Source: a virus. Taken from it: a stretch of DNA of 20,933 bases. Both the position numbers and the translations under genes were made by a program. The notes beneath the pieces are model-generated. The model was not told the origin of the DNA and did not search any database. It saw only the letters and a program-made list of their open reading frames with translations. The DNA lies in the IMG/VR virus record IMGVR_UViG_3300032296_000913, positions 1-20,933 of that record. One strand, written 5' to 3'. Below are positions 934 through 12,722 of this stretch, piece after piece. Numbering within the stretch: the first letter of the stretch is position 1; each line of letters begins with the position of its first letter.

Positions 934-2064
934 TTATTTTAGACCCACATATTCAAAATTAAATGTTTTTACGCCTTTTTCTCTGAATCCTGATTGTCGT
1001 AACATATTACCGCCTGTTTTCATTTTTCCCATTAATCTTGTTTGCCCAAGAAATACCCATTCTTTTTGTTTTATCATTGCTTTGTATACAGGCATTGCTG
1101 AGAATTTAGCCATGATTCTGCAGGATATTTTTTGTTTCAATAATTTTGATGTTTCGTTGATCAATTTTATTCCCAATCCCATTCCATTGTAATCTGGGTG
1201 TATTACAGTTCTGTTTGAATGATATATAATTGTTGTTCCTGGCTTGTGTGGCGTATAATTAGCAAAACATTGAAATCCTATTTGATTTTCTCCATGAAAC
1301 AAACCATATAAATAGATTTTTCCTCCAGGCAAATGCTCGCTCAAATAATGATATTTGCTAAAATATTTCCACGATTTTCTGTCAACTTCTTTAATTGTAA
1401 ATTCAATTTGTTCTCGTTCGTTAAAAAAAAAATCTTTGCTTTTTGGCAAAATAAATTCTTGTTTATTGCAATCTATTAACCAATCAGGTTGCAACCATTC
1501 CAAAATATCATAATGGCAACTTAACAATATTATTTTTTTATTGAATTTTTTGGCAAATTTATTTATACATAATGACATAGCTTTTGCTACCGTTCGATCA
1601 ACAACACTCGTCCATTCGTCAATACATACTAAATCTGTTTTACACATTAAATATGCAGCTTCTGCTCTTGCTTTTTGACCATTTGATAATGTTTTAATTG
1701 GTCTTATCCAACACGGCACACTATTTAATCCTATCCCGTTTAATATAGAAGCGCATTGATCATAATTAAATTCTTTGGGAAGTTGATCAATTATTGGCAA
1801 ATTTTCATCTAATGAAACTTGGAATATATCGTTTCCAAATAAATGTTTTGCCATTGTTGTTTTACCACTTCCTGATGCGCCATATATTATCCCAACATTC
1901 CATTCATTCGGTATAGCAACATTATCTATTTCTACTGAATGTTTGCTTTTCTTTTTTACATCGATATCCAGTGAATTTGCTGCTGCCTGACATCGAAAAG
2001 TATTAAATACTTCGCTGCTTAATTCGTATTTAATTTTTTGGGGTATCATTGAATTATTTTGCAT
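934..2064 (-). CDS. ABC-type ATPase fused to a GNAT/Mom-like acyltransferase
   Basis: A two-domain protein of 376 residues. The N-terminal half is an ABC-class ATPase without any membrane segment: Walker A GASGSGKTT at 62-70, signature LSNGQ at 126-130, Walker B DLVCIDE at 144-150, D-loop near 153-157 and an H-loop histidine in SCH at 182-184. The C-terminal half (about 225-376) looks like a GNAT fold, with the acyl-CoA loop pattern HPDYNGMGLG at 289-298, preceded by a KYHYLSEHLP segment that recalls the Mom branch of phage DNA-modification enzymes. The gene overlaps the upstream ParB-like gene by 19 nt and lies just before the terminases. It is visibly more AT-rich than the neighbouring genes, suggesting recent transfer. 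I infer ATP-dependent modification of phage DNA bases. The domains are clear; the substrate is inferred. Confidence 0.78.
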   Translation of the reverse strand: MQNNSMIPQKIKYELSSEVFNTFRCQAAANSLDIDVKKKSKHSVEIDNVAIPNEWNVGIIYGASGSGKTTMAKHLFGNDIFQVSLDENLPIIDQLPKEFNYDQCASILNGIGLNSVPCWIRPIKTLSNGQKARAEAAYLMCKTDLVCIDEWTSVVDRTVAKAMSLCINKFAKKFNKKIILLSCHYDILEWLQPDWLIDCNKQEFILPKSKDFFFNEREQIEFTIKEVDRKSWKYFSKYHYLSEHLPGGKIYLYGLFHGENQIGFQCFANYTPHKPGTTIIYHSNRTVIHPDYNGMGLGIKLINETSKLLKQKISCRIMAKFSAMPVYKAMIKQKEWVFLGQTRLMGKMKTGGNMLRQSGFREKGVKTFNFEYVGLK

Positions 2065-7070: not shown

Positions 7071-8230
7071 AATGTGTTTAATACTTGTGTTACTTTCTCG
7101 TGTGCTATATTCTGATTAAAATGCTCTCGTACATAGTCATGCAGGTTATTTGCTAGTCGTTCGCGCAATTCTTTGTCGTTCGTCAGTCGCAAGATAGCGG
7201 TAAACCATCCCTCTTTCTCATTGCAGACCAAAGCGTTTACGTTGTGTTGCAAATGCGGTGCGTAAGGTAACACGTTGCTAACTATTGCAGCGCATTTAGT
7301 CCATCCTGCTTCGATCAACTTCAATTCGGACTTACAGCTATTGAATACACCGTGTTCCATTGGAATCAACGCCACGTCGACCTCCTCATACATCACACCG
7401 TAGTCGATTGCGTCCTTTGCCCAAAAACGTTTGTAAAACTGTTGGTTGCCTATGTGATTACCTTCTCGCACAAACGATTTCAGGTAATCGCGATAAAAGT
7501 CAGGAAGTTGTGTGTAGTTAAATGTAAACATCCGCTCCACTTCCGTAAATGACGGATGCAAATTAAAGCTATTTACAAACTGCACTTTTGAGCGAATATG
7601 CTTATTCTGGTAAGCAGAACGAACACCATTAAACATTAACGCTGCATCGCGTTCGCGGTACATACCTGCAATAAAGCCAAATCGCGTAAATCTTGACGGC
7701 TGTTTGTTCGTGCTAAACTTAGTGATATTTGGATCAATAGTGTTAGGCACAATCGTTGCGTCAATGCCGTATTCGTTTTTGATATGACGCGCTAATGTTT
7801 CGGTTGAGCAAGTGACAGCGTCAACAATTTTAACGACTTCCTTTGTCTGATTCTCCCACTCGCTAACCTCATTTAACTGATGCGTAAAATATCGCACCGC
7901 TTCATCGTTTTTAAGGCTTGTCGCGTGTTGTATGCGACCTTTAATTGATTTGTGGTGTAGCTGATGCCACGTTGGAATTTTCCAGTAATCGTCAATGTCA
8001 AGAATGATCTTTTTACCTGCATCTTTAAGTTTGGTAAACAGTTCCATTGGATGCGCTCGGTTAATGACGTACACATCGCTATCTAATGGCGAATTAAGGA
8101 TGTCATGCTTCGATGCTATTTGCGCTCCGTCAATTCGGCAATATGGCATATACAGACGATACAAATCCATACCATTTGCGATCAATTCACGGTCTTTGCC
8201 GAAGCCGTTGGTTAATACGGTTACTTTCAT
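7067..8230 (-). CDS. Family 4-like glycosyltransferase (GT-B fold)
   Basis: A 387-residue protein with the two-domain GT-B layout. The N-terminal half has Rossmann-like strands (MKVTVLTNGFG, DVYVINRAHP, KKIILDIDDYW); the C-terminal half begins with RFGFIAGMYRERD and contains the donor-binding segment SELKLIEAGWTKCAAIVSN near residue 305, the E-x7-E-like region of GT4 enzymes, followed by NALVCNEKEGW. It is the first glycosyltransferase of the cassette in transcription order, overlapping the sigma-like gene by 4 nt. It has no membrane segment. Donor and acceptor are unknown. Confidence 0.83.
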   Translation of the reverse strand: MKVTVLTNGFGKDRELIANGMDLYRLYMPYCRIDGAQIASKHDILNSPLDSDVYVINRAHPMELFTKLKDAGKKIILDIDDYWKIPTWHQLHHKSIKGRIQHATSLKNDEAVRYFTHQLNEVSEWENQTKEVVKIVDAVTCSTETLARHIKNEYGIDATIVPNTIDPNITKFSTNKQPSRFTRFGFIAGMYRERDAALMFNGVRSAYQNKHIRSKVQFVNSFNLHPSFTEVERMFTFNYTQLPDFYRDYLKSFVREGNHIGNQQFYKRFWAKDAIDYGVMYEEVDVALIPMEHGVFNSCKSELKLIEAGWTKCAAIVSNVLPYAPHLQHNVNALVCNEKEGWFTAILRLTNDKELRERLANNLHDYVREHFNQNIAHEKVTQVLNTL

Positions 8231-8778
8231 TGCTTGGTTTTATTAAATTCTTTGACCATCGTCCGCACGTAAACACACGCTGACGAATAATGTATGCCTG
8301 TTTTCTTCTGAAAATCTCTGTAACTGCGTTTCTTAATCGGTTCGTACTCCATGTACTCCAATGTGACCAGTGACTGTAAACTAAGTTCGGGATTAGTCTT
8401 GTTCTGATCACAAAACGCTTTAAACTCGTGTATCAATTCAGGATCGAGACCTACGCGCTCCGTTTGCTCATCCACAACGTCCAATTCAAGATCGTCGATA
8501 AATTCGTAGGTAGGAAAATTCTGTTTGTTGAAGTTTGATCGTGGTAGCATCACCTCACGCACCATTGTAATAAATGCGTAATGCTTTAATTTGCCGTTTT
8601 GGTATAGGTTAAAAATATTTTCCTCTGGCAAAGCACAAACACGCTCAATGACAAGGTGCAACAAGTCTTCACGGGCTGCGAATGTGCGACAGTAGGCCTT
8701 TATTGCTGACCGCAATTCCTTACTGTTGTACAACTCCGTGATGATCTGATCTCTGTTCACGGACTGCAATTTACGCAC
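8227..8778 (-). CDS. Sigma-70-like transcription factor
   Basis: A 183-residue protein that resembles a small phage sigma-like factor. Residues about 18-80 are helical with an AAREDLLHLVIERV segment like sigma region 2, followed by an aromatic KHYAFITMVREVML helix. An acidic linker with EFIDDLELDVVDEQ leads to a C-terminal helix-turn-helix (YRDFQKKTGIHYSSACVYVRTMV) placed like region 4. The similarity is by pattern, and the basic region-2.4 residues are not obvious. It heads the 13-gene overlapping chain that includes the glycosyltransferases and DNA-modification genes, so it may switch transcription of the late region. Confidence 0.62.
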   Translation of the reverse strand: MRKLQSVNRDQIITELYNSKELRSAIKAYCRTFAAREDLLHLVIERVCALPEENIFNLYQNGKLKHYAFITMVREVMLPRSNFNKQNFPTYEFIDDLELDVVDEQTERVGLDPELIHEFKAFCDQNKTNPELSLQSLVTLEYMEYEPIKKRSYRDFQKKTGIHYSSACVYVRTMVKEFNKTKQ

Positions 8779-8811: not shown

Positions 8812-9315
8812 TTAGTTAACACACATAAACGAATCAATTACTCGCATCCGTTCCTGCGTTGCTTTTATGTGTATTTCGATTAATTCCATATTAATTTCAT
8901 CACCCACCTGCTTGCATAATTCGTACAACTTCCACAACTGGTCAATTTCATAACCAACAAAACATAGGCGAAGTTCAGGCGTGTCGGCTGCTGCGTACAT
9001 ATCCAACTTTGGCGACAAGTCAGCCATTAACGTTCTGTATGCTTCAGCGTATTTAAGATCAGCCTTTGTGTTATGGCGGTTGTTATGCCTCCGCATCGCG
9101 TGAATAACGGTAGCATGATTACGGTTAACTATTTGCCCGATTGATACCAACGATAACATCGTATGCTCTCGTAGTATGCCCATAACCAGTTGACGGACCA
9201 ATACTATTTCGCCCAATCGCGTTTTGCCTTTGATTTCGTCGAATGTTAATCCGAACACGTTATGTACTGATGCCTGTAATGCAGACATGAATTTCTGTGA
9301 ATCTGTTGCTTTCAT
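8812..9315 (-). CDS. Stand-alone DnaA domain IV (DnaA box-binding) protein
   Basis: A 167-residue protein whose residues about 16-80 match the DNA-binding domain IV of the replication initiator DnaA: LTFDEIKGKTR, then ARQ-type helix LVRQLVMGILRE, and the signature NRNHATVIHAMRRH at 65-78 (family core H-x-T-V-x-H-A). No AAA+ ATPase domain precedes it. The remaining 85 residues are helical and unassigned. It may bind the phage origin or compete with host DnaA. Its leader contains two CCAAA boxes (9316-9337) and no Shine-Dalgarno. It lies 33 nt before the sigma-like gene. Confidence 0.8.
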   Translation of the reverse strand: MKATDSQKFMSALQASVHNVFGLTFDEIKGKTRLGEIVLVRQLVMGILREHTMLSLVSIGQIVNRNHATVIHAMRRHNNRHNTKADLKYAEAYRTLMADLSPKLDMYAAADTPELRLCFVGYEIDQLWKLYELCKQVGDEINMELIEIHIKATQERMRVIDSFMCVN

Positions 9316-9389
9316 TTTTGTTTGGTTTTTGGTTATTAATTAATTTGTGGGATGTGCGCTACGAGTTGCGTGTATTTGCGAGTTAGCTG

Positions 9390-9569
9390 CTATTTTACCG
9401 ACCACTCCGAAAGTTTAGACTTTACAATCAATTTCAGTTCATCAACTTTTGACAATGGACAGCGAAAAGCAATCGTTTTGGTTTCTTCGTTGTATTTAGG
9501 TTTAGCACCCGAACCTTGCCGAGTGCCTCCTCTTTTTAATTTACTTGTATTGATTTTTCTATTGAGCAT
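9390..9569 (-). CDS. Small basic RGGxRxGxG protein
   Basis: I found this 59-residue gene by translating the gap by hand. It starts at ATG 9567-9569 inside the end of the 81-aa gene (34-nt overlap, different frame) and ends at TAG 9390-9392. The N-terminal half is basic and carries KRGGTRQGSGAKPKY, a motif shared by many small phage and bacterial proteins that continue as here with TIAFRCPLSKVDELKLIV, probably a strand-helix-helix DNA-binding unit of ribbon-helix-helix style. Function is not established. The stop is 75 nt from the DnaA-like gene. Confidence 0.7.
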   Translation of the reverse strand: MLNRKINTSKLKRGGTRQGSGAKPKYNEETKTIAFRCPLSKVDELKLIVKSKLSEWSVK

Positions 9570-9781
9570 AATAAATCATCTATATTAGTTCTATTAAAAT
9601 CACTTTCGTTTATTCTCATTTTGTAACCTAAATAATTGATAACAAAAATGTATTTTCTGCCTTCTTTTGTAAAGTCAAAAATATATTCTTTATTATTTGG
9701 GGTTACAAATGTTCTACCAGCCTTAGCCATTAATACATCGTCTTTTTTTGTGTATTTACCGATTTGATTTACTTGTTTCAT
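9536..9781 (-). CDS. Hypothetical protein
   Basis: An 81-residue protein with no recognised family. The pattern is mostly beta strands (EYIFDFTKEGRKYIFVINYLGYKM) with a basic start, which would suit a small SH3-like or OB-like fold, but this is only a guess. It is AT-rich relative to its neighbours. It follows a good Bacteroidetes-type promoter at 9807-9838 and overlaps the 59-aa basic protein gene, so both probably come from that promoter. Confidence 0.6.
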   Translation of the reverse strand: MKQVNQIGKYTKKDDVLMAKAGRTFVTPNNKEYIFDFTKEGRKYIFVINYLGYKMRINESDFNRTNIDDLLCSIEKSIQVN

Positions 9782-9806
9782 TTTGTTATTGTTTTAATTT
9801 CTGATA

Positions 9807-9838
9807 CAAATATAAACCCTTTATTTTGAATTTGCAAA
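9807..9838 (-). promoter_or_regulatory. Bacteroidetes-type promoter (-33 TTTG, -7 TATATTTG)
   Basis: On the minus strand a TTTG (9835-9838) is followed after 20 nt by TATATTTG (9807-9814), close to the Bacteroidetes consensus TTTG-N19-TAnnTTTG. It lies 25 nt ahead of the ATG at 9781, leaving a short A-rich leader. It should drive the 81-aa gene and probably the downstream block. Confidence 0.65.
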
Positions 9839-9949
9839 CTATTTCAAAGATATTTTCAATTTATTTTTTAAAGTGCTAAAAATCAAATAGAAAAAAACAG
9901 CGGCTAACAGCACATAAGCAAAAGCCCAAATCCAACCGCACAATGCCAA
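9839..9949 (-). CDS. Possible 36-aa single-span membrane peptide (TTG start)
   Basis: Between DnaB and the next gene the minus strand encodes a hydrophobic stretch (CGWIWAFAYVLLAAVFFYLIF) followed by a basic tail (STLKNKLKISLK) and a TAG stop. An in-frame TAA shortly upstream leaves only TTG codons (9947-9949 or 9941-9943) as starts. The inside-positive layout is what a real small membrane protein would show, but the same DNA carries nested inverted repeats and could simply be a structured intergenic region. Weak call. Confidence 0.3.
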   Translation of the reverse strand: MALCGWIWAFAYVLLAAVFFYLIFSTLKNKLKISLK

Positions 9950-9972
9950 CGCTATTTGTGCCTTCGCTTATC
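9914..9972 (-). repeat. Nested inverted repeats downstream of dnaB
   Basis: An outer pair ATAAGC/GCTTAT (9914-9919 with 9967-9972) encloses an inner pair GCACAA/TTGTGC (9938-9943 with 9956-9961). On the transcribed strand a run of seven T follows at 9897-9891, about 16 nt past the outer stem, too far for a standard intrinsic terminator. It may still slow or end transcription after dnaB. Confidence 0.35.
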
Positions 9973-9981
9973 TGCAAATCG

Positions 9982-11373
9982 TTAAAATGGTAAATCGTTT
10001 GTCTTTGGTATAAAATCCGTGTTAGGTTGCAATGTGTTACTGATGTATGTCTTTTTAGGATCAACGAACAAAGTATGCTCACCGTCCCAGTTAAGATCAA
10101 CCGCGCCAGTTTCACCGTTACGATGCTTTGCAATGATAACCTCTGCCTTACCTTCCGTGCTTTGTCCGTTCTCATCCTGCATTTCACCGTAGTATTCAGC
10201 GCGGTGAATAAACATTACAATATCCGCATCCTGTTCGATTGCGCCTGATTCGCGCAAGTCGGATAGTTGTGGACGTTTCTCACCGCGTGATTCTACCGCA
10301 CGACTTAATTGTGATAAGGCTACCACAGGCACGTTGCAATCTTTTGCTACTCGCTTCAACTCTCGGCTGATCTCGGATATAATTGCTTCACGGTTTCGGT
10401 TTCGTCCGTTTGGTACGCTCACTAATTGCAGGTAATCAACAATAATCAACCCGACACCACCTTGCACGGCTTTCAACGACTTACTGCGAAGTTCCTGCCA
10501 GTCAATTCCTGCCTTGTCTTCAATCTGCAACGGATGGCATTCTATCACACCTCGCGCCTGTTCCACTTTGCGAAGTTCATCAGTAGTCAGACATCCGTTT
10601 TTGTAGTTGTGCGAATTTACCAGCGATTCCATCACGATTAGACGCGTGGTAAGTTGCAGCGCGGACATTTCAAGACTAAAAAACAATACAGGTTTGTTGG
10701 AATTACGGGCAAATGCTAACGCTAACGCTGTCTTACCCATTGCAGGACGCGCAGCAAGTATCACAAGGTCTGATGGCTGCCATCCACCAAACACACGGTT
10801 CATATCAGTGAATCCTGTGCTGATTCCAGTCGGCAGGTTATGTTCACGGGCGTAAACTTTCTTAGCGTACTCTTCGCGCTCCAACTTTACCACCTCCGCA
10901 ACAGATACCACCTGCTTACCTTTAGTAGTTTCAGACATTAGATAGTCGTTTAACTGCTTAACGTCATCGCGAATGTTAAACACGTCCACGCTGTCTGCAT
11001 AGCTGCGATTAATCAACCTGTCGGCCTGTTGTATCACTTCCCTACGCATAGCCAATTCCTGAATCTCTCTGCAATGTGCTTCGATATGAACATCACTACC
11101 AACACGGTTGCACAACTCGGAAACGATCATAATGCCGACAATTTCTAATTCGTTAGTCGCTTTAAGTTCTTTGGTCACGGTAACCATATCAACGGCTTCG
11201 CGCTTACGGAATAGTCGATCAATAGCTGCAAAGATGCGACGGTGTTTCTCGTGATAAAACGTTTGCTCATTAATGATTTCCATAACACGGGCAATGCTCT
11301 GCTCAAACAATACCATCGTGCCGAGTACCACGCGCTCCGTGTCTAAGTTGTATGGCGGTTTTCTGTCGTTCAT
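9982..11373 (-). CDS. dnaB: Replicative DNA helicase, DnaB type
   Basis: A 463-residue hexameric 5'-3' helicase that should unwind the phage fork. The N-terminal domain (about 7-105) starts with the typical PPYNLDTERVVLG. The RecA-like domain has Walker A ARPAMGKT at 208-215, FFSLEMS at 231-237, Walker B IIVDYLQL at 310-317, the SQLSR sensor near 354-358, the RESGAIEQDAD loop at 374-384 and IIAKHRNGETG with the arginine finger near the end. Length is normal for DnaB. The leader carries AACCAAAC and no Shine-Dalgarno. It lies within the replication block, just after the RadC-like gene. Confidence 0.95.
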   Translation of the reverse strand: MNDRKPPYNLDTERVVLGTMVLFEQSIARVMEIINEQTFYHEKHRRIFAAIDRLFRKREAVDMVTVTKELKATNELEIVGIMIVSELCNRVGSDVHIEAHCREIQELAMRREVIQQADRLINRSYADSVDVFNIRDDVKQLNDYLMSETTKGKQVVSVAEVVKLEREEYAKKVYAREHNLPTGISTGFTDMNRVFGGWQPSDLVILAARPAMGKTALALAFARNSNKPVLFFSLEMSALQLTTRLIVMESLVNSHNYKNGCLTTDELRKVEQARGVIECHPLQIEDKAGIDWQELRSKSLKAVQGGVGLIIVDYLQLVSVPNGRNRNREAIISEISRELKRVAKDCNVPVVALSQLSRAVESRGEKRPQLSDLRESGAIEQDADIVMFIHRAEYYGEMQDENGQSTEGKAEVIIAKHRNGETGAVDLNWDGEHTLFVDPKKTYISNTLQPNTDFIPKTNDLPF

Positions 11374-11869: not shown

Positions 11870-12604
11870 TTACTCAAAATTAAACTTTTTGTACTGTTGT
11901 TTCGGTTTTGGTTTAAGTTCACCGTTCTTTTGCTTTACTCCGAGCCAATTAGTAAAATGTGATTTCAGATCGCGCTCCGTTTTATCCTCATCCTTTCCTT
12001 GCGAATGACAATGGGATATAAACTCATCCACAAGCCTATTAAAGTCATCAGTACTGATCTTATAGGCTCGGATAACATTCTCATACCACAACGTCTGTTT
12101 GGGCAATTCTCGGATGTGTTCAACCTTATACTTTGGCTGCGGTTTGAATTGGTCGACATATCGTGGCGGTAAAATTTCCTCCACACCCCCTTTGTTATTA
12201 TCAACTAAATTTACATCTTCATCTTCATTTTCAGTCGGCATATTCAATTCCATATCCGTAGCAGATGCATTTGCATATGCATTTGCATCACCCGATGTAG
12301 CTTTTGCCCATCTTTTTTGAGCATTTGCACTTAGATTTGTACTTTTCTTTTGGCGCAACACCATTTCCTGCATCAGTCGTTCATTATAAAATCCATCCTC
12401 CGTTTCAATAAATTTAGAACGAACAACCGCATCATCTTTGACCATATTGTTAAAACTAAATTTATCAATCAATCCCCCGTGTTGATGTTGAGCGCATAGC
12501 ATACGTACGTACAATCCAACCTGCTCGTTGGTCATAAACAAAGTGCCAGTCAAAAAATCTGACGTGTAAAACAAAAATGCAGGATCTTTAGCTTTCTTAG
12601 CCAT
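11870..12604 (-). CDS. DUF1376-like phage replication protein
   Basis: A 244-residue protein. The N-terminal domain (about 8-45, PAFLFYTSDFLTGTLFMTNEQVGLYVRML) resembles the winged-helix DUF1376/YdaU-type start of phage replication proteins. A linker of about 90 residues follows, with an Ala/Asn-rich run and an acidic stretch, and then a C-terminal unit (WYENVIRAYKISTDDFNRLVDEFISHC ... LKSHFTNWL, written here in parts) similar to the tail of Bacteroidetes replication initiators or helicase loaders. By position before dnaB it probably loads the helicase or marks the origin. The linker DNA holds a perfect tandem 12-mer. Exact function is inferred. Confidence 0.72.
   Translation of the reverse strand: MAKKAKDPAFLFYTSDFLTGTLFMTNEQVGLYVRMLCAQHQHGGLIDKFSFNNMVKDDAVVRSKFIETEDGFYNERLMQEMVLRQKKSTNLSANAQKRWAKATSGDANAYANASATDMELNMPTENEDEDVNLVDNNKGGVEEILPPRYVDQFKPQPKYKVEHIRELPKQTLWYENVIRAYKISTDDFNRLVDEFISHCHSQGKDEDKTERDLKSHFTNWLGVKQKNGELKPKPKQQYKKFNFE
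12265..12288. repeat. Perfect tandem repeat of ATGCATTTGCAT (2 copies)
   Basis: Two head-to-tail copies of the 12-mer lie inside the linker-coding part of the replication protein gene, and a further GCATTTGCA occurs near 12321-12329. They encode the Ala/Asn-rich linker. They could be plain low-complexity coding sequence or iterons of an origin placed inside the gene, as in lambda gene O. Confidence 0.6.
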
Positions 12605-12616
12605 TGTAAAATAAAT

Positions 12617-12701
12617 ATGCCCACCAACATACTAACAGCGTTCCACTTCTGCTTTCTGCCAATGGGCATTTAATTCGTTAGGTTGCTTATAATGTGGAAC
12701 G
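12617..12701 (-). other. Interleaved inverted repeats in 5' leader of the replication gene
   Basis: The 118-nt gap holds two inverted-repeat pairs that cross each other: CGTTCCAC (12639-12646) with GTGGAACG (12694-12701), and ATGCCCA (12617-12623) with TGGGCAT (12663-12669). In the transcript from the promoter at 12715 these could form a pseudoknot or two competing hairpins just ahead of the start codon. This gene also lacks the AAACCAAAAC leader found elsewhere. Confidence 0.5.
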
Positions 12702-12714
12702 GCAACACTTAATG

Positions 12715-12722
12715 CAAATATA
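12715..12722 (-). promoter_or_regulatory. Promoter -7 element TATATTTG
   Basis: TATATTTG on the minus strand is the same octamer as at 9807 and 16447. No good TTTG box stands at the usual distance; only a weak TTTC at 12740-12743. It abuts the stop codon of the upstream HTH gene and would give a leader of about 105 nt for the replication protein gene. Confidence 0.45.

Follow-up and report, generated by a model that had tools for sequence, protein, structure and literature searches.

In bacterial DnaA, the AAA+ domain and domain I are needed for formation of the ATP filament and for DNA melting. Phages encode origin-binding proteins of their own, the lambda O-type replisome organizers, which act together with the helicase. 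Small phage proteins resembling the DNA-reading end of DnaA are already known by annotation, as DnaA-type names occur both in phage records and in BFVD, where several rows are called "Chromosomal replication initiator, DnaA C-terminal". Such proteins occur, for example, in the annotated phages Flavobacterium Muminvirus, Olleya phage Harreka_1, Pelagibacter phage HTVC100P and a Rhodobacteraceae phage, and the part of PMC6811365 available to us lists DnaA among the proteins of all HTVC010P-related genomes. The literature searched describes no function for a phage stand-alone DnaA domain IV.

Here we analyse such a gene in a bacterial virus. The window, that is, the whole stretch of 20,933 nucleotides of record IMGVR_UViG_3300032296_000913, encodes a stand-alone DnaA domain IV protein, hereafter DnaA-IV, with the following parts:

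8812 to 9315, minus strand: DnaA-IV gene, 167 aa with an ATG start, recognised by Pfam, PDB sequences, predicted fold and dN/dS
9001 to 9315, minus strand: domain IV part, residues 1-105, from the structure matches to 3pvp and 1j1v
9097 to 9120, minus strand: recognition-helix signature NHATVIHA, residues 66-73, from the ORF translation and alignment to 1j1v
8815 to 9000, minus strand: C-terminal extension, residues 106-167, with a two-helix hairpin in the predicted model and no assigned family

Profile searches and the predicted fold confirm that the protein encoded at 8812-9315 (minus strand) contains a DnaA domain IV and lacks the AAA+ ATPase domain. Pfam PF08299 (Bac_DnaA_C), which occurs at a single place in the 20,933-base record, matches residues 13-75 with E=6.1e-17 (61.8 bits against a cut-off of 31.5), and all three sequences found by phmmer in the PDB at E<=0.01 are DnaA entries (3pvp, 1j1v, 8btg). 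This bears out the original prediction, which had proposed a DnaA domain IV from the letters alone and had held that the ATPase part was missing; indeed, no AAA+ family in Pfam matches the protein at E<=0.1. The NCBIfam DnaA models match through their C-terminal end only and far below their cut-offs, TIGR00362 for instance reaching 57.4 of the 343.9 bits needed with a match restricted to profile positions 345-433. Since domain IV starts at about residue 8, there is no room N-terminally for another domain such as DnaA domain I.

The fold prediction suggested along with the original prediction was run, using a 46-row alignment hand-chosen from 107 ORFs plus the window protein. The resulting AlphaFold2 model (mean pLDDT 85.3, pTM 0.65) agrees with DnaA domain IV at Z 13.0-13.9. 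In VIA-align, run over candidates supplied by Foldseek, model residues 8-105 matched M. tuberculosis DnaA (3pvp_A; Z 13.9, 96 residues, rmsd 2.0 A) and residues 8-102 matched E. coli DnaA (1j1v_A; Z 13.0, 93 residues, rmsd 2.0 A), while the best unrelated row, at Z 8.5, stood below both DnaA entries. Foldseek by itself also ranked DnaA domain IV entries at the top, with E 0.005-0.023. The extension is modelled as a hairpin of helices 113-137 and 140-166. An "unassigned helical half" had been proposed for this part, which is helical and has no family named for it, but is not a half: as domain IV reaches about residue 105, the added part comprises some 60 residues, or about a third of the protein. 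No family is named because the rows matched by residues ~98-167 are mixed helical hairpins with Z up to 8.5, and a known fold for the C-terminal part was accordingly rejected among these rows, while a family absent from them may still fit. PHROG 4878 covers residues 39-155 at E=0.013 only.

The excerpts available from PMC7561715 and PMC5043019 give R399, P423, R432-T435 and residues 438-439 as the base-specific contacts of E. coli DnaA. With the register taken from the sequence alignment to 1j1v and from the 1j1v numbering in the structure match, DnaA-IV has R33, V57, R65, N66, H67, A68, I71 and H72 at these positions. By this partial contact list, the equivalents of R399, R432, H434 and H439 are retained (R33, R65, H67 and H72) and three positions are altered (P423V, D433N and T435A). 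The DnaA box recognition signature NHATVIHA described in the original prediction is present at residues 66-73. Conservation of the recognition-helix letters among the relatives is largely by construction, because the motif itself found most of the set; however, R33 and R41 both lie outside the motif through which the loci were found, and all 46 aligned phage proteins have R33 (E. coli R399), while 44 of the 46 have R41, which corresponds to E. coli R407. Residue 66 is D in 30 of the 46 phage proteins and N in 16. For the hosts, we sampled 34 loci of Bacteroidota (L217-L250, mostly best-scoring matches), in which 23 chromosomal DnaA motifs were readable, all in ORFs of more than 450 codons; 22 read DHST and one NHAT, indicating that the phage recognition helix is not the usual host one.

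Proteins of this kind are common in phages, with at least 309 related stretches confirmed among 600 examined in an alignment-based scan of IMG/VR, of which 80 were kept. The window protein itself was found in 12 other contigs at 95-100% identity, one of them matching residues 45-167 only. Across loci L002-L096 the motif is present in 94 of 95 and gives 96 ORF rows, all of at most 218 aa and none of DnaA length; two of these rows, of 25-26 aa, are chance matches or fragments, and a few are clipped at contig ends. A first scan of bacterial genome contigs for the close family returned 25 pattern stretches and no relative. The second found 94 relatives in 107 stretches, of which 80 were kept and two inspected. 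The best relative (L137) is a chromosomal DnaA, and the other inspected one, a Prevotellaceae contig (L149:5414-6101), carries two tandem DnaA-IV genes after DnaB- and methyltransferase-like ORFs, both recognised by eye.

Two groups of phages were compared more closely. Their DnaA-IV proteins are 38% identical between groups, residues 1-105 sharing 48 of 105 positions and residues 106-167 sharing 15 of 62. The whole gene has a dN/dS of 0.034 in group 1 (11 genes, 8 distinct, after exclusion of one identical and one partial contig) and 0.025 in group 2 (9 genes, 7 distinct, one partial excluded); for the C-terminal part alone the values are 0.043 and 0.008, respectively. Both the domain IV part and the C-terminal part are therefore under purifying selection, with dN/dS of 0.01-0.04.

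The surroundings of the gene contain further features relevant to its role:

8227 to 8778, minus strand: next gene (n183), a 183-aa protein that is ECF-sigma-like by fold in a predicted model (low confidence), with a homologue after DnaA-IV in group 2
9807 to 9838, minus strand: promoter-like site of the Bacteroidota type ahead of the small genes and DnaA-IV; two such sites were found against 1.03 expected, not above chance by count
9982 to 11373, minus strand: DnaB replicative helicase (Pfam DnaB_C, E=2.9e-93)
11870 to 12604, minus strand: replisome-organizer-like (primosomal) protein, DUF7833, from Pfam and PHROG-type profiles
12600 to 12720, minus strand: structured RNA leader with two hairpins and an 8-bp loop-loop (kissing) helix, from covariation, with no match in Rfam

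On the minus strand the window encodes, among other ORFs, a RecT-like protein, a YqaJ exonuclease, an endonuclease-like protein, an HTH protein, the primosomal protein, RadC and DnaB, followed by two small ORFs, DnaA-IV, the 183-aa protein and glycosyltransferase-like genes (the last by eye). The order DnaB, DnaA-IV, n183 is repeated in group 2, where in contig L020 the stop of DnaB lies 23 bases from the start of DnaA-IV and the next gene is a 183-aa homologue, 48% identical. Mechanical ORF calling in L109 and L103 places one small ORF between DnaB and DnaA-IV. All 20 contigs found via n183 are also in the DnaA-IV contig lists. The window n183 protein has no Pfam match. Its model (pLDDT 66) is topped in VIA-align by sigma factors at Z of about 7-7.5, a range in which matches can arise by chance (Z <8), and its Foldseek hits are at E 0.46 or worse; a resemblance to ECF sigma factors is thus a lead only. 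Across the wider family, three ORFs per side were available in 46 of 55 representatives, and 251 of the 276 neighbours lie on the same strand. The two nearest neighbours per side (184) include, among the matches listed, a primosomal protein, helicase, primase, exonuclease, methyltransferase and nucleotide kinase, and no family occurs in more than 6 of 92 proteins among the first 25 families of 135 and of 177 in the two tallies.

Several other observations were made in this neighbourhood. Two pieces of the small-gene stretch at 9316-9984 are 87-89% identical to pieces of G015:16941-17580, and apart from them little of the window aligns with G015 at the DNA level. The shared stretch lies between DnaB and DnaA-IV in the window and about 2.4-3 kb upstream of DnaA-IV in G015, and it is mostly absent from several sister contigs; it looks like a mobile cassette. 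The organizer gene seems, by eye, to keep its C-terminal end and to vary in its N-terminal part in the window (11870-12604, minus strand), L009:3280-4089 and L111:2117-2863. At 934-2064 (minus strand), the window has an ORF that appears by eye to combine an ATP-binding cassette protein with an acetyltransferase-like end in one fusion, adjoined by a ParB-domain gene at 2046-2561 (ParB_N, E=3.1e-8).

The RNA leader is a separate feature of these phages. It is non-coding, is flanked by the HTH and primosomal genes, and is 82.5-86.6% identical to its group 2 counterparts; 80 bases within 12601-12700 are unchanged in the three contigs that align there. It folds into a hairpin H1 and a long hairpin P3, and the loop of H1 can pair with the apical loop of P3. 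Its single-strand folding energy is not exceptional (z -1.2, -1.7 and -2.4). The 8-bp loop-loop helix is fully paired in 10 sequences (9 distinct), with four pairs changed on both sides. A covariance model built without the loop-loop helix was searched among 80 loci and matched Flavobacterium phage snusmum (L019, E 3.7e-6), L055 (5.8e-5) and, weakly, L054 (0.6), in which, despite differing letters, the loops can pair at 8, 8 and 7 of 8 positions. Once L046, which duplicates L019, and L087 (E 2.7) had been removed, the loop-loop helix has standard pairs in 103 of 104 cells over 13 rows, and among 11 distinct rows both sides have changed in 19 of the 28 pairs, a count reached by 0 of 500 shuffles, although the helices besides the loop-loop helix were fitted to the model and the shuffles ignore relatedness. 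An RNA model run on Bacteroidota genomes matched 0 of 118, in a search without a known positive. Replisome-organizer-like ORFs follow the leader in the window and, judged by eye, in L009, L111 and L055; in G015 it is followed by an ORF that looks HNH-like by eye, and in snusmum it overlaps the annotated start of a helicase gene. A T-rich tract comes after the long hairpin, which makes it reasonable to suspect an attenuator-like leader.

Other group-1 phages have a different leader at the same place (L005:1778-1962, L006:2473-2657 and L098:14083-14267, also G002), with a compensated loop pair of its own (CTGACAG/CTGTCAG against GTAGCTG/CAGCTAC). Downstream of TAnnTTTG, crossing 7-bp stem pairs were found at 19 of 817 sites against 4-12 in ten shuffles, and crossing 6-bp pairs at 95 against 62-78. 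Further crossing-stem sites after the Bacteroidota -7 box lie at L014:9718-9865, where the site extends into the start of an annotated endonuclease gene, L019:12830-12977 and L086:6992-7139, and they possibly represent a wider class of leaders.

Canonical DnaA boxes were considered as the target of DnaA-IV and set aside as its probable target, as they are not clearly enriched in the phage DNA examined. With at most one mismatch, TTATNCACA has 27 matches in the window against 32.9 expected. Over 83 partly redundant loci (L014-L096), TTATNCACA occurs 45 times (45.8 expected), TTWTNCACA 95 times (119 expected) and TTATCCACA 15 times (8.0 expected). Between -300 and +50 of the DnaA-IV gene in 55 representatives, there are no copies of TTATNCACA (0.88 expected) and two of TTWTNCACA (1.92 expected). 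Clustering was examined in 11 phage sequences, namely five contigs (the window, G002, G006, G013 and G015) and six annotated loci, the latter being 16-kb parts of their phages. None has a clear canonical box cluster, with G006 as a weak exception: three TTATCCACA-like sites (at most one mismatch) fall within 400 bp, a density that 3 of 60 shuffles also reach. In G002 such sites number 16 against 10.0 expected and are not clustered. In the positive control, E. coli oriC, four TTATCCACA-like sites lie within 400 bp, a number reached by 0 of 60 shuffles, and TTATNCACA gives five sites, reached by 2 of 60. No iteron in the form of a 9-mer repeated four times within 400 bp was found in G002, G013, G015 or the window, and the 7- and 8-mers upstream of the gene in the representatives are weak, mostly AT-rich words, uncorrected for multiple testing. 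These results argue against bacterial-style oriC copies in the examined stretches and are compatible with single or altered sites. For alphaproteobacterial phage genomes, the part of PMC9437464 available to us reports that DnaA sites show no positional asymmetry. The element conserved ahead of the primosomal gene was likewise considered as a DnaA-IV site, as the CGTTCCAC arms resemble part of a box; these arms vary as compensated pairs, which means that base pairing is conserved, and the candidate was rejected.

Tentatively, we favour the reading that DnaA-IV is a DNA-binding accessory of phage replication with a changed site preference. The protein would be an ATP-independent, sequence-specific binder of double-stranded DNA encoded by the phage, composed of domain IV and a helical hairpin. 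Its target may be a DnaA-box-like site in phage DNA with a sequence unlike TTATNCACA, and the C-terminal hairpin may serve in dimer formation or in contact with the phage helicase or organizer. As it has neither the AAA+ domain nor domain I, no ATP filament and no DnaA-like origin melting would be expected, and the protein would assist initiation of phage replication rather than perform it. Domain IV itself, retention of the DNA-contact arginines and histidines, purifying selection, the presence of DnaA-IV in all 20 contigs found via n183, the recurring place after DnaB and the primosomal, helicase and primase families among the neighbours speak for a replication accessory; the position near the phage DnaB, seen again in group 2 and, by eye, in the Prevotellaceae contig, fits such a role. 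The original prediction, which proposed that the protein could recruit replication to the phage origin or titrate host origins, is partly supported. However, the box, iteron and upstream searches yielded no candidate binding site, the phage already encodes the replisome-organizer-like gene at 11870-12604, and no neighbour family recurs beyond the counts given above. A bolder form of this reading, in which phages converted the part of DnaA that reads DNA into a factor that recognises origins without ATP and has a changed box specificity, works as partner of the phage DnaB encoded close by in groups 1 and 2, and uses the C-terminal hairpin in place of domains I and III as helicase or dimer contact, is in our judgement improbable.

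The same evidence bears on other roles. DnaA itself doubles as a transcription factor, and the HTH of domain IV might likewise bind phage promoters and control phage genes; this is somewhat unlikely, though it would suit an ECF-sigma-like next gene (Z 7-7.5, pLDDT 66), the occurrence of DnaA-IV in some other phages among small hypothetical genes with no helicase adjoining, and the lack of a clear origin-like box cluster. The closeness to DnaB seen in both groups, and by eye also in L149, is harder to reconcile with a regulator, as is the region upstream of the gene in the representatives, where neither a TTATNCACA box nor a convincing 7- or 8-mer occurs. The targets could also be in the host, given that the contact residues are largely kept and phage DNA has no clear box clusters. 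DnaA-IV would then occupy oriC or other DnaA boxes of the host, block or delay host initiation and free replication resources, and a domain IV that lacks AAA+ should act as a competitor but not as an activator. We consider this anti-host role unlikely, since the D433N, P423V and T435A changes may shift specificity, the phage helix is no copy of the usual host one (22 of 23 Bacteroidota motifs being DHST, one NHAT), and the link to the phage DnaB would be left unexplained. That the domain is a functionless leftover is very improbable, as it is contradicted by the low dN/dS in both parts and both groups and by the presence of DnaA-IV in every contig found through n183. If DnaA-IV were shown to recruit the phage DnaB without ATP, it would reveal how little of DnaA origin recognition needs; if instead it blocks host oriC, it would represent a common anti-host tool.

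Among the described systems nearest to DnaA-IV is domain IV of bacterial DnaA (1j1v, 3pvp; PF08299), with which it shares the predicted fold over residues 8-105 and the equivalents of R399, R432, H434 and H439, while it differs in having no domains I-III, in the three altered contact positions and in the added C-terminal hairpin. Lambda O-type organizers have another fold, and here the separate gene at 11870-12604 is the one that matches primosomal and replisome-organizer profiles. PHROG 27829 (DnaA-like replication initiation protein, a 72-position profile) also describes a DnaA-like HTH, and the match of DnaA-IV to it is weak (E=0.0014). Muminvirus gp026 and gp028, Harreka_1 gp24 and HTVC100P gp21 are likewise small proteins with a DnaA domain IV and no ATPase, as are the "Chromosomal replication initiator, DnaA C-terminal" proteins of uncultured Caudovirales phages. 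From the known stand-alone phage DnaA-HTH proteins, which are 112-186 aa long, DnaA-IV is set apart by an identity of 25-28% (three aligned) and by their other N- and C-terminal additions.
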